40,301 nucleotides of DNA from Syntrophales bacterium (GTDB lineage: Bacteria > Desulfobacterota > Syntrophia > Syntrophales > UBA4778): contig JAQTPK010000001.1 of NCBI GenBank assembly GCA_028712885.1, forward strand, positions 1 to 40,301, read 5' to 3'. The notes under the pieces are model-generated. The model saw nothing but the letters and a program-made list of their open reading frames with translations, searched no databases and was not told the DNA's origin. The position numbers and the translations under genes are program-made. Below, one piece after another: positions 8,961 through 12,443 of this stretch. Each line of letters starts with the position of its first letter. Within the stretch, counting starts at the first letter, position 1.

Positions 8961-9060
8961 GTCCATTGCGTCATTGTGTCTATTGCGTCCATTGGGTCAT
9001 TGCTTGAGAATTTATATAGGAACGCAACGGACGCTATGGACGCGACAGACGCAATAGACG
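8961..9060. repeat. Inverted word array (GTCCATTGC-type, 8-9 nt)
   Basis: The left arm at 8961-9002 has GTCCATTGC, GTCATTGT, GTCTATTGC, GTCCATTGG and GTCATTG. The right arm at 9023-9060 has GGACGCTAT, GGACGCGAC and AGACGCAAT, an exact 9-nt period. It fills the gap between leuB and the YciO-like gene and ends at the leuB stop. Confidence 0.7.
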
Positions 9061-9061
9061 T

Positions 9062-10126
9062 TCAGCATTTTCGTATATATCCCGCCACCAGGTCTCCGAT
9101 TTCCCGCGTCCCGAGACCCATCCTGCCCGCATCCAGGCTCCGGATATCGTTCTGCAGCGCCTTCTTTACGGCCGCCAGGATTCTGGAAGCGGCTTTTTCC
9201 TCGCCCAGAAACTCAAGCAGCATCTGGGCGGAACAGATCGCGGCGAGCGGGTTTATCTTGTTCTGGCCGGTGTATTTGGGGGCGGACCCTCCGATCGGCT
9301 CGAAGAACCCCGTCACGCCGGGACGGATATTGCCGCCGGCGGCTATTCCCATGCCGCCCTGGATCATTGCGCCCAGGTCGGTAATGATATCGCCGAACAT
9401 ATTGTCCGTGACGATAACGTCGAAATATTCAGGATTTTTAATCATCCACATGCAGGTCGCGTCCACGTGGGCGTAGTCCGTCTGAATATCGGGGAATTCC
9501 CGGCCGACGTCGTAGAATACCCTTTCCCAGAGGTCGAACGCGTAGGTCAGGACGTTTGTCTTCCCGCAAAGTGTCAGCTTCTTCCTGCGGTTCCTTTTCC
9601 GGCAATATTCATAGGCGTAACGGACGCAGCGCTCGATACCCTTCCTGGTGTTGATCGATTCCTGGACGGCGATCTCGTCCGGGGTGCCTTTCTTCAGGAA
9701 GCCCCCGCTTCCGGTATAAAGCCCCTCCGTGTTTTCCCGGATGACGACAAAATCGATATCGTCCGGTCCCTTGTCCCTGAGCGGAGTATAGACGCCCGGG
9801 TAGAGGACGACCGGCCTCAGGTTGATATAGAGGTCGAGCGCGAAGCGAAGCTTCAGCAGGATACCCTGTTCGAGGATTCCCGGCTTGACTCCCGGGTGCC
9901 CGATTGCTCCCAGGAGGATCGCCTTCATCCCCTTCAGCTCCGAGAGCACCGAGTCGGGGACAAGCTCTCCGTTCCTGAGATACCGCTCCCCGCCCAGATC
10001 GTACTCGGCAAGGCGGACCTTCAATCCTCCAACCTCCGCCGCAGCCCGGAGCGCTTTGACGGCTTCCGCCGTGACCTCCGGGCCGGTGCCGTCACCGGGA
10101 ATAACGCCTATCTCGTATTCGCTCAT
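9062..10126 (-). CDS. leuB: 3-isopropylmalate dehydrogenase family (LeuB), probably beta-methylmalate active
   Basis: NAD-dependent oxidative decarboxylase of the isocitrate/isopropylmalate family, 354 residues. Visible are the N-terminal IGVIPGDGTGPEV, RFALDLYINLRPVVLYPGV (substrate Arg), FVVIRENTEGLYTG, GKTNVLTYAFDLWERVF and the metal-site TDNMFGDIITDLGAM, with FEPIGGSAPKYTG near the cofactor site. Directly behind cimA (19-bp gap, GAGGT ribosome site) it would oxidise beta-methylmalate to 2-oxobutyrate in the citramalate route to isoleucine. LeuB enzymes are known to do this as well as the leucine reaction. No leuA or leuCD is present in the window, so the isoleucine role is favoured but not proven. 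Confidence 0.9.
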   Translation of the reverse strand: MSEYEIGVIPGDGTGPEVTAEAVKALRAAAEVGGLKVRLAEYDLGGERYLRNGELVPDSVLSELKGMKAILLGAIGHPGVKPGILEQGILLKLRFALDLYINLRPVVLYPGVYTPLRDKGPDDIDFVVIRENTEGLYTGSGGFLKKGTPDEIAVQESINTRKGIERCVRYAYEYCRKRNRRKKLTLCGKTNVLTYAFDLWERVFYDVGREFPDIQTDYAHVDATCMWMIKNPEYFDVIVTDNMFGDIITDLGAMIQGGMGIAAGGNIRPGVTGFFEPIGGSAPKYTGQNKINPLAAICSAQMLLEFLGEEKAASRILAAVKKALQNDIRSLDAGRMGLGTREIGDLVAGYIRKC

Positions 10127-10145: not shown

Positions 10146-11750
10146 TTACCGCCTGCCGTTCGCCGAGTTTACTCGCGCGCCCGCGTCGGATTTGCTCAGT
10201 TTGTATTGTATGCTGTCTACCAGGGCCTGCCAGCTTGCCTCTATGATGCTGCCGGACACGCCGATCGTGCTCCAGACTTCGCCGGCGTCCCGAGACTCTA
10301 TCCAGACGCGAACCTTCGCCGCAGTCCCGTCTGTCCCCTCCAGAATGCTGACTTTGAAGTCCACGAGGTGCATCTCTTTAATCTGGGGATAAAAGGTTGT
10401 CAACGCCTTTCTCAGGGCGTTGTCCATGGCGTTGACGGGCCCGTTTCCCTCCGCTGCTGTGATCTCCTCTTCGCTTCCGACCGAGATCTTGATCATGGCC
10501 TGCGACAGGGACGGACCGCCCTGGCTCTTTTCGTTCACGACCCGGAGCGACTCCAGGCGGAACGGTTCCTTGAATTCTCCCGTCGTTTTCCTGATCAGCA
10601 CGGCCAGGGAGCCGTCGGCTGCTTCGAATGTATATCCCTCGTCCTCCAGTCTTTTTATCTCGGCGACGATTTTGCGGCTGGCGGGATCGCCGTTTTCGAG
10701 GGAGATCCCCAGCTCCTTCGCCTTGTATTCGATATTGCTCTTGCCGGAGAGGTCGGATACGAGGACCCGGCGATGGTTGCCGACCATTTCCGGGGCGATA
10801 TGCTCATAGGCGGCCGTGTTTTTCAGCACGGCATTGACGTGGACTCCGCCCTTGTGCGCGAATGCGCTCCGGCCCACGAACGGCCGGGAACTCAGGGGAG
10901 GGACATTAGCCGTGTCGCTGACGAAATGGGAAAGGTTAGTCAGCTGGCGGATCGATTCGTCCGGGAGACATCTCTTCTTCATTTTGAGCTGGAGATTGGC
11001 GATGATCGGCAGCAGATCGGCGTTGCCGCATCTCTCGCCGTAGCCGTTTATCGTCCCCTGCACCATCCGTACGCCCCGCCCCGCGGCGGCCAGAGTGTTG
11101 GCGACCGCCAGGCCGCCGTCGTTGTGTGCATGTATTCCGAGCATGTGCGGCGGGATGAGATCCAGCATGGACGCGACGATCAGGTCGACCTCGTGGGGAA
11201 GCGTCCCTCCGTTCGTGTCGCACAGGCAGATGAAATCGGCGCCCGAAGCAAGGGCGGCCTCGACGGTCTTGCGGGCGTAGCCGGGGTTGTTTTTGTAGCC
11301 GTCGAAGAAATGTTCGGCGTCATAGACGAGCTCCTTTCCTCTTTTCTTCAGGAAACGTACAGTGTCCCCGATAATGGCGAGGTTCTCCTCAAGGGACACT
11401 CCCAGGATCTCCCTTGCATGCAGGTCCCAGGTTTTCCCGAAAATCGCGACAGCGGGAGTGCCGGCCTGAAGCAGCGCCTCCAGGTTGGGACATTCTTCGG
11501 GGCGGGAATCGGCCTTGCGGGTGCTTCCGAAAGCGGTCAGCCGGGAGTTCCGGAATCGGTAGCCTCCCGCCATTTCGAAGAAGCGCATGTCCTTCGGGTT
11601 TGAGCCGGGCCAGCCCCCCTCGATGTAATGAAATCCGATATCGTCCAGTCTCTTTGCGATGCGGAGCTTTTCCTCCGCCGAGAAATTGACCTGTTCCCCC
11701 TGCGTCCCGTCCCGCAGCGTAGTATCGTAAACGATAATGTCGTTACCCAT
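10146..11750 (-). CDS. cimA: (R)-citramalate synthase
   Basis: Condenses pyruvate and acetyl-CoA to citramalate, the entry step of threonine-independent isoleucine synthesis. At 534 residues it has the CimA length. The HMGL-like barrel starts with VYDTTLRDGTQGEQVNFS (residues 7-24). HAHNDGGLAVANTLAA supplies the metal-binding His pair, and GTINGYGERCGNADL follows. After about residue 400 a LeuA-type regulatory domain follows. The long spacer and the EGGWPGSNPKD substrate loop favour CimA over LeuA. The ATG at 11750 has GGAGA upstream. It is preceded by an attenuator leader encoding an isoleucine-rich peptide, which independently points to isoleucine synthesis. Confidence 0.96.
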   Translation of the reverse strand: MGNDIIVYDTTLRDGTQGEQVNFSAEEKLRIAKRLDDIGFHYIEGGWPGSNPKDMRFFEMAGGYRFRNSRLTAFGSTRKADSRPEECPNLEALLQAGTPAVAIFGKTWDLHAREILGVSLEENLAIIGDTVRFLKKRGKELVYDAEHFFDGYKNNPGYARKTVEAALASGADFICLCDTNGGTLPHEVDLIVASMLDLIPPHMLGIHAHNDGGLAVANTLAAAGRGVRMVQGTINGYGERCGNADLLPIIANLQLKMKKRCLPDESIRQLTNLSHFVSDTANVPPLSSRPFVGRSAFAHKGGVHVNAVLKNTAAYEHIAPEMVGNHRRVLVSDLSGKSNIEYKAKELGISLENGDPASRKIVAEIKRLEDEGYTFEAADGSLAVLIRKTTGEFKEPFRLESLRVVNEKSQGGPSLSQAMIKISVGSEEEITAAEGNGPVNAMDNALRKALTTFYPQIKEMHLVDFKVSILEGTDGTAAKVRVWIESRDAGEVWSTIGVSGSIIEASWQALVDSIQYKLSKSDAGARVNSANGRR

Positions 11751-11770: not shown

Positions 11771-11855
11771 TCGTAAGGCGTAAATCGTGAGGCGCAAGGA
11801 GTATAAAGCCGGGCAGAACCCGACACCTTACGCTTCACTCCTTACGACTTACGTT
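11771..11855. repeat. Inverted 7-nt word array (GTAAGGC-type)
   Basis: The left arm at 11771-11803 has GTAAGGC, GTAAATC, GTGAGGC and GCAAGGA. The right arm at 11823-11855 is the complement (ACCTTACGCTTCACTCCTTA and so on). It sits inside the cimA leader, between the attenuator terminator and the cimA ribosome site. Confidence 0.75.
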
Positions 11856-11862
11856 CAGAAAC

Positions 11863-11897
11863 AAAAAACCGCTGCCGGTTGAGCCTGACAGCGGTTT
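11863..11897 (-). terminator. Attenuator terminator of the cimA-leuB leader
   Basis: On the minus strand AAACCGCTG pairs with CAGCGGTTT (9 bp, plus inner GG/CC), followed directly by a T6 tract. It lies 33 nt after the leader-peptide stop and about 110 nt before cimA. Its 5' arm overlaps the antiterminator segment at 11883-11894, so the two structures exclude each other. Confidence 0.85.
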
Positions 11898-11984
11898 CGG
11901 TTTCCTATTTTAAAAGTACTACGCCATCGTCAGGCAGGAATATGTGCCGCCTGAATAATTATGCTGCTGATAATGATGATGGCG
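11883..11984 (-). promoter_or_regulatory. Competing attenuator segments 1, 2 and 3
   Basis: Segment 1 (11974-11984, CGCCATCATCA on the minus strand) covers leader codons 5-9. It can pair with segment 2 (TGACGATGGCG): 7 bp, one mismatch, then 3 bp. Segment 2 (11924-11935, GCCTGACGATGG) can instead pair with segment 3 (11883-11894, CCGCTGTCAGGC): 7 contiguous bp plus a partly wobble extension. Segment 3 includes the 5' arm of the terminator. Segment 2 contains the leader stop codon. A ribosome stalled at isoleucine codons covers segment 1 and frees 2:3 (read-through). A ribosome at the stop covers segment 2 and allows termination. Confidence 0.8.
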
Positions 11985-11998
11985 AATCTGCTCTTCAT
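11930..11998 (-). CDS. Isoleucine-rich leader peptide of cimA-leuB
   Basis: A 22-codon frame: ATG, then KSRFA, four Ile codons in a row (7-10), SS, three Ile codons (13-15), QAAH, Ile20, PA, stop TGA. Eight of 22 residues are isoleucine. It begins about 33 nt after the predicted transcription start and ends inside segment 2 of the attenuator. The ribosome site is weak (no GGAGG seen). The function is to sense charged tRNA-Ile by ribosome stalling, as in the ilv and thr leaders of enterobacteria. The peptide itself is probably discarded. Confidence 0.85.
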   Translation of the reverse strand: MKSRFAIIIISSIIIQAAHIPA

Positions 11999-12037
11999 TT
12001 CGAACGGTTCTAACTGCCGAAATCTGATCTGGCATGC

Positions 12038-12066
12038 TTTATAGAATGATTTCCGCCCGTTGTCAA
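12038..12066 (-). promoter_or_regulatory. cimA-leuB promoter
   Basis: On the minus strand TTGACA (12061-12066, 6/6) - 17 nt - TATAAA (12038-12043, 5/6) forms a near-consensus sigma-70 promoter. Transcription would begin near 12031, giving a leader of about 280 nt that contains the peptide and the attenuator. Confidence 0.85.
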
Positions 12067-12293: not shown

Positions 12294-12298
12294 ATAAA

Positions 12299-12351
12299 GT
12301 TCAGAGTTCAGTCATAACTGCCGGACCACAGGTCCGGGTTCAACTCTGAAC
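12299..12351. repeat. Two-tier inverted repeat
   Basis: The outer arms GTTCAGAGTT / AACTCTGAAC (12299-12308 and 12342-12351) enclose an inner hairpin CCGGACC-ACA-GGTCCGG (12321-12337). There is no T-tract, so it is not an obvious terminator. The GTTCAGA words resemble the window-wide word arrays. Confidence 0.7.
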
Positions 12352-12443
12352 ATTACACTCGAACTTAAAAATGTGATCAGGATACCAGAATAAAAATAGA
12401 AACAGTTGCATGAAGGAAAGGATATTTTTCAGGAGGCTTTCCC

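Follow-up and report, generated by a model that had tools for sequence, protein, structure and literature searches.

A short, isoleucine-rich open reading frame (ORF) lies between a promoter and an intrinsic terminator upstream of cimA in the window (the whole 40,301-nt stretch of Syntrophales DNA analysed here), and raises the question of whether transcription of this gene is adjusted to the supply of charged tRNA-Ile. The near-consensus promoter, the 22-codon leader with isoleucine at codons 7-10, 13-15 and 20, the ability of segment 2 to pair with either segment 1 or segment 3, and the T6 terminator overlapping segment 3 had all been described in an initial annotation, and each was found in its place (Table 1). 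Within the leader transcript the segments can form the alternative pairings 1:2, 2:3 or 3:4, the GCCUGAC that includes the stop codon being, as read from the sequence, complementary to the GUCAGGC of the terminator 5' arm. RNA folding gives the terminator, located between leader and cimA, an energy of -20 kcal/mol (z -3.7).

Table 1. Features of the putative cimA attenuator and of the genes that follow it, in window coordinates.
Feature	Position	Strand	Detail or basis
Promoter TTGACA-17-TATAAA	12038..12066	(-)	11/12 consensus; -35 TTGACA 12061-12066, -10 TATAAA 12038-12043
Leader peptide ORF MKSRFAIIIISSIIIQAAHIPA	11930..11998	(-)	22 codons, ATG 11998 to TGA 11930, 8 Ile codons
First Ile run, codons 7-10 (AUC AUC AUU AUC)	11969..11980	(-)	sequence; overlaps segment 1
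Second Ile run, codons 13-15 (AUA AUU AUU), likely control codons	11954..11962	(-)	stall model, spacing
Segment 1, CGCCATC, partner GATGGCG (11922-11928) just past stop	11978..11984	(-)	RNA fold
Inner protector arm TCAGGCGG, partner CCUGCCUGA (11930-11938)	11947..11954	(-)	RNA fold
Segment 2 (CCTGCCTGACGATGGCG), contains leader stop codon	11922..11938	(-)	pairs with segment 3
Segment 3, terminator 5' arm	11884..11896	(-)	covaries with segments 2 and 4
Segment 4 and T6 tract (T6 11863-11868), intrinsic terminator 3' arm	11863..11878	(-)	fold and alignment
cimA, citramalate synthase, putative regulated gene	10146..11750	(-)	TIGR00977 704 bits, cut-off 450
leuB, isopropylmalate/methylmalate dehydrogenase	9062..10126	(-)	NF002898 519 bits, cut-off 393; 19 bp after cimA

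Regarding the genes downstream, a search of the genome for threonine deaminase gave nothing above the cut-off (58.8 bits against 378.75), so that cimA, whose product is the usual entry to isoleucine synthesis in many anaerobes, is likely to be this entry in the window genome as well. The leuB family has a single match in the genome, the one adjoining cimA, and its placement under isoleucine control would be predicted to tie leucine synthesis to the isoleucine supply. The control of cimA-leuB put forward in the initial annotation could nevertheless be retained only in part: the conserved target would be cimA but not the cimA-leuB pair, since leuB adjoins cimA in the window and in just one other of the order loci examined.

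Conservation of the leader was evaluated on cimA loci taken to belong to the order Syntrophales (class Syntrophia), the class search having given genomes of one order, with the named relatives being deltaproteobacterial metagenome bins. At a threshold of at least 5 Ile in 10 codons, an Ile-rich leader was detected upstream of cimA at 87 of 98 loci of the order; shuffled sequences gave one in 26 of 1960 cases and cimA loci outside the order in 1 of 93, so that the conservation of isoleucine codons proposed as a check in the initial annotation was borne out. The densest 10-codon stretch of the window leader contains 7 Ile; dinucleotide shuffling of these 600 nt, repeated 3000 times, never reached this value. 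The Ile-rich leader before cimA is not due to chance. Behind the leader ORF comes the terminator, which in most genomes lies about 30 nt upstream of cimA. The 90 leaders compared comprise 88 distinct peptides with 34% Ile overall (ATT 291, ATA 219 and ATC 207 codons), and show no conserved sequence beyond the Ile runs; considering that all three Ile codons are used and that the peptides differ, it is the amino acid that is kept and not the bases. A promoter scoring at least 10/12 precedes the leader in 62 of the 90 relatives versus 6 of 90 shuffled sequences, and Shine-Dalgarno sequences are enriched before the relatives' leaders (51/90 versus 24% in the control), while that of the window is poor (-2.3 kcal/mol versus a median of -4.2 in the 90 relatives), in agreement with the weak ribosome site already pointed out for this leader. 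A few genomes of the order show a poor or absent Ile leader together with a retained terminator, the loci L121 and L194 among them. Upstream of cimA at L121 (genome G028), the terminator is present and an Ile-rich leader ORF was not found, and this region is perhaps a decayed attenuator.

The alternative helices were then evaluated in an alignment of 44 genomes, one row each, with 500 shuffles as control. The antiterminator 2:3 was paired in 93.0% of cells and the terminator 3:4 in 96.5%, values that drop to 24-54% in slid controls. Double changes were found in 23 cells for 2:3 (shuffled mean 8.4) and in 37 for 3:4 (shuffled mean 9.3), each count being reached by none of the 500 shuffles, with the caveat that related rows can exceed such shuffles without any structure. 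Less striking were the pair count and the pair-type count of 2:3, matched or exceeded in 182 and 246 of the 500 shuffles, respectively. On the evidence of these sequences, antiterminator and terminator are mutually exclusive and both covary. The compensatory changes that the initial annotation had suggested looking for in segments 1 to 4 are thus present in 2:3 and 3:4; the 1:2 pairing, with a codon-shuffle p of 0.03 in the window, is weak across relatives, and the inner protector helix, which has an equivalent in many of them, showed no covariation in the alignment and is unsupported as a covarying element. Outside segments 2-4 there is little conserved structure.

Ribosome positions were explored with a stall model in which the ribosome footprint is masked and the remainder folded before segment 4 exists. 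For the window, it gives 2:3 a probability of 0.00-0.01 with the ribosome at codons 7-10, of 0.53, 0.83 and 0.84 at codons 13, 14 and 15, respectively, and of 0.00 at the stop codon; over 46 leaders, the mean is 0.85 at the best Ile codon versus 0.03 at the stop. With the ribosome at codons 7-10, the TCAGGCGG:CCUGCCUGA hairpin persists in the model, so that segment 2 stays sequestered. Hence, the proposal that stalling for lack of tRNA-Ile frees 2:3 holds in the model at codons 13-15, but not over segment 1 and codons 7-10, where the initial annotation had placed it, and the first Ile run found no support in the modelled folds as the window control site. A stall at these codons, met first by the ribosome, is predicted not to free segment 2, which counts against the attenuator reading. 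The last Ile run and segment 2 are separated by an almost invariant distance, 26 nt (IQR 26-29) in relatives and 28 nt in the window; this spacing, together with the stall-model probabilities, points to codons 13-15 as the likelier control site. AUA is enriched in the last Ile run (36% versus 14% in cimA genes, p 9e-8, codon usage being that of cimA genes and of genes in the window), which may partly reflect a conserved CATAATTAGG motif. Both folds anticipated for this region were recovered, the terminator by plain folding and 2:3 with the ribosome at codons 13-15. Once the full terminator is present, it prevails in all states of the model, and read-through must therefore be decided by the timing of events as the RNA is transcribed, which is also the case in the trp attenuator.

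Conservation, covariation and gene context strongly support the logic of the trp, his and ilv attenuators proposed for this leader, and we give a probability of about 0.9 to its being a ribosome-mediated transcription attenuator that senses charged tRNA-Ile and acts on cimA. Transcription would start near position 12030 and a ribosome would translate the leader. With sufficient Ile-tRNA, the ribosome would reach and cover the stop codon in segment 2, allowing the 3:4 terminator to form and transcription to end near 11863. Under a shortage of charged tRNA-Ile, the ribosome would stall at Ile codons, with the greatest effect at codons 13-15; there it would mask the inner protector arm but leave segment 2 free to capture segment 3 ahead of the synthesis of segment 4, so that the terminator would be absent and cimA-leuB would be read. 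We infer from computational evidence that leader translation, stalling, termination and read-through take place in vivo.

Other explanations share part of this evidence. Arrest peptides of the TnaC or Erm leader type, in which the peptide's own sequence stalls the ribosome on a small-molecule cue and not on uncharged tRNA, have a similar anatomy, with a short ORF followed by alternative hairpins; however, they keep specific residues, whereas the peptides compared here almost all differ and have in common an Ile density written with three codons, and the composition of the leaders tracks the product of the operon, which makes such a peptide very unlikely here. It is scarcely credible, too, that the ORF encodes a genuine small hydrophobic protein and that the terminator merely ends its gene: the hydrophobic nature of Ile-rich peptides and the modest 1:2 pairing in the window would fit, but not the lack of conservation beyond the Ile runs, the near-constant spacing between the last of these and segment 2, or the covariation of segment 2 with a terminator arm, unneeded by a plain terminator.

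Elsewhere among bacteria, T-boxes and riboswitches regulate branched-chain genes, and a tRNA- or metabolite-binding RNA of this kind could govern the terminator with the ORF being incidental. Nonetheless, an Rfam search for known leaders or riboswitches gave no family at the gathering score (26 bits versus 49 for His_leader and 25.7 versus 58 for ncS01), and this, together with the scarcity of conserved structure beyond segments 2-4, renders this possibility very improbable.

Leaders rich in the matching amino acid also precede sister operons. The window genome contains two ilvB copies, each with a Val-rich leader and a terminator (MRCLETIAFVLVVIVVPCTAGG at L150 and MKAISILRIVVVVVTPSTGAG at L166), and Leu-rich leaders precede leuA of relatives; in the order, the genes lie apart and their leaders differ, with Ile for cimA, Val or Ile for ilvB and Leu for leuA. 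An RNA model of segments 2-4, built from the cimA leaders and searched in the own genome and in 247 genomes of the phylum, gave one match in the former and matches in 26 of the latter. In several other Desulfobacterota the match heads an operon: ilvB and cimA follow it, in some cases together with leuA, and ilvD, ilvH and ilvC were also identified in one of these operons (L347). The leaders of these operons have the same segments 2, 3 and 4 as the cimA leader, but mix Ile, Leu and Val, so that one leader serves three amino acids and all genes, whereas cimA of the window order has its own Ile-only leader. In a cimA protein tree, the 28 sampled members of the order all fall to the same side of a branch with full support, labels being given by order and not by each peptide; two of these 28, L116 and L121, have a poor or no Ile leader. 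Another cimA, the second one of genome G058 (L134), is 56% identical to that of the window, has no leader and groups with distant cimA sequences. The simplest reading, although not proven, is a breakup of the operon followed by recoding of each leader. We slightly favour that one ancestral Ile/Leu/Val attenuator of ilvD-ilvBH-ilvC-cimA-leuA was copied at this breakup and that the codons of each copy then changed to match the product of the branch it serves; the result would be a set of single-amino-acid switches, with that of cimA tuned to isoleucine alone.

Among known systems, the ilvL attenuator of Escherichia coli ilvGMEDA, whose leader carries Ile, Val and Leu codons and which controls ilvA, resembles the cimA leader in its Ile-codon peptide, alternative hairpins, U-run terminator and control at the isoleucine entry. 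However, it counts the three amino acids together, whereas the window leader counts only Ile, and its isoleucine entry is threonine deaminase instead of citramalate synthase. In Corynebacterium and other Actinobacteria, the ilvBNC attenuators likewise consist of a short ORF with branched-chain codons and a terminator before a branched-chain operon (PMC1262725, PMC11857589), but differ in gene, phylum and sequence, as well as in mixing Ile, Val and Leu codons. In agreement with the initial annotation, which knew of no widely described case, our literature search found no attenuator on citramalate synthase, although an earlier mention in the survey of proteobacterial attenuators by Vitreschak (2004) is possible. 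Thus, the mechanism is classical, while its target, lineage and specialisation are new within the literature searched. The locus would place classical attenuation on citramalate synthase, and its order-wide conservation, together with the mixed-codon version in relatives, provides a natural series for the study of control-codon specialisation.

The DNA around the leader and its genes also contains repeats. Between the terminator and cimA lies an 82-nt, imperfectly palindromic element (11780-11861), a member of a family of interspersed repeats that is matched at 14 further places in the own genome, and extra sequence at this place was also observed in several relatives. An inverted repeat at 12295-12355, with 14-nt arms that are 93% complementary, separates the leader promoter from a divergent ORF at 12410. 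At the other end, another inverted repeat, with 21-nt arms and GTC(T/C)ATTGCGTC-like repeats, is found at 8978-9059, between leuB and the gene for threonylcarbamoyladenylate synthase.
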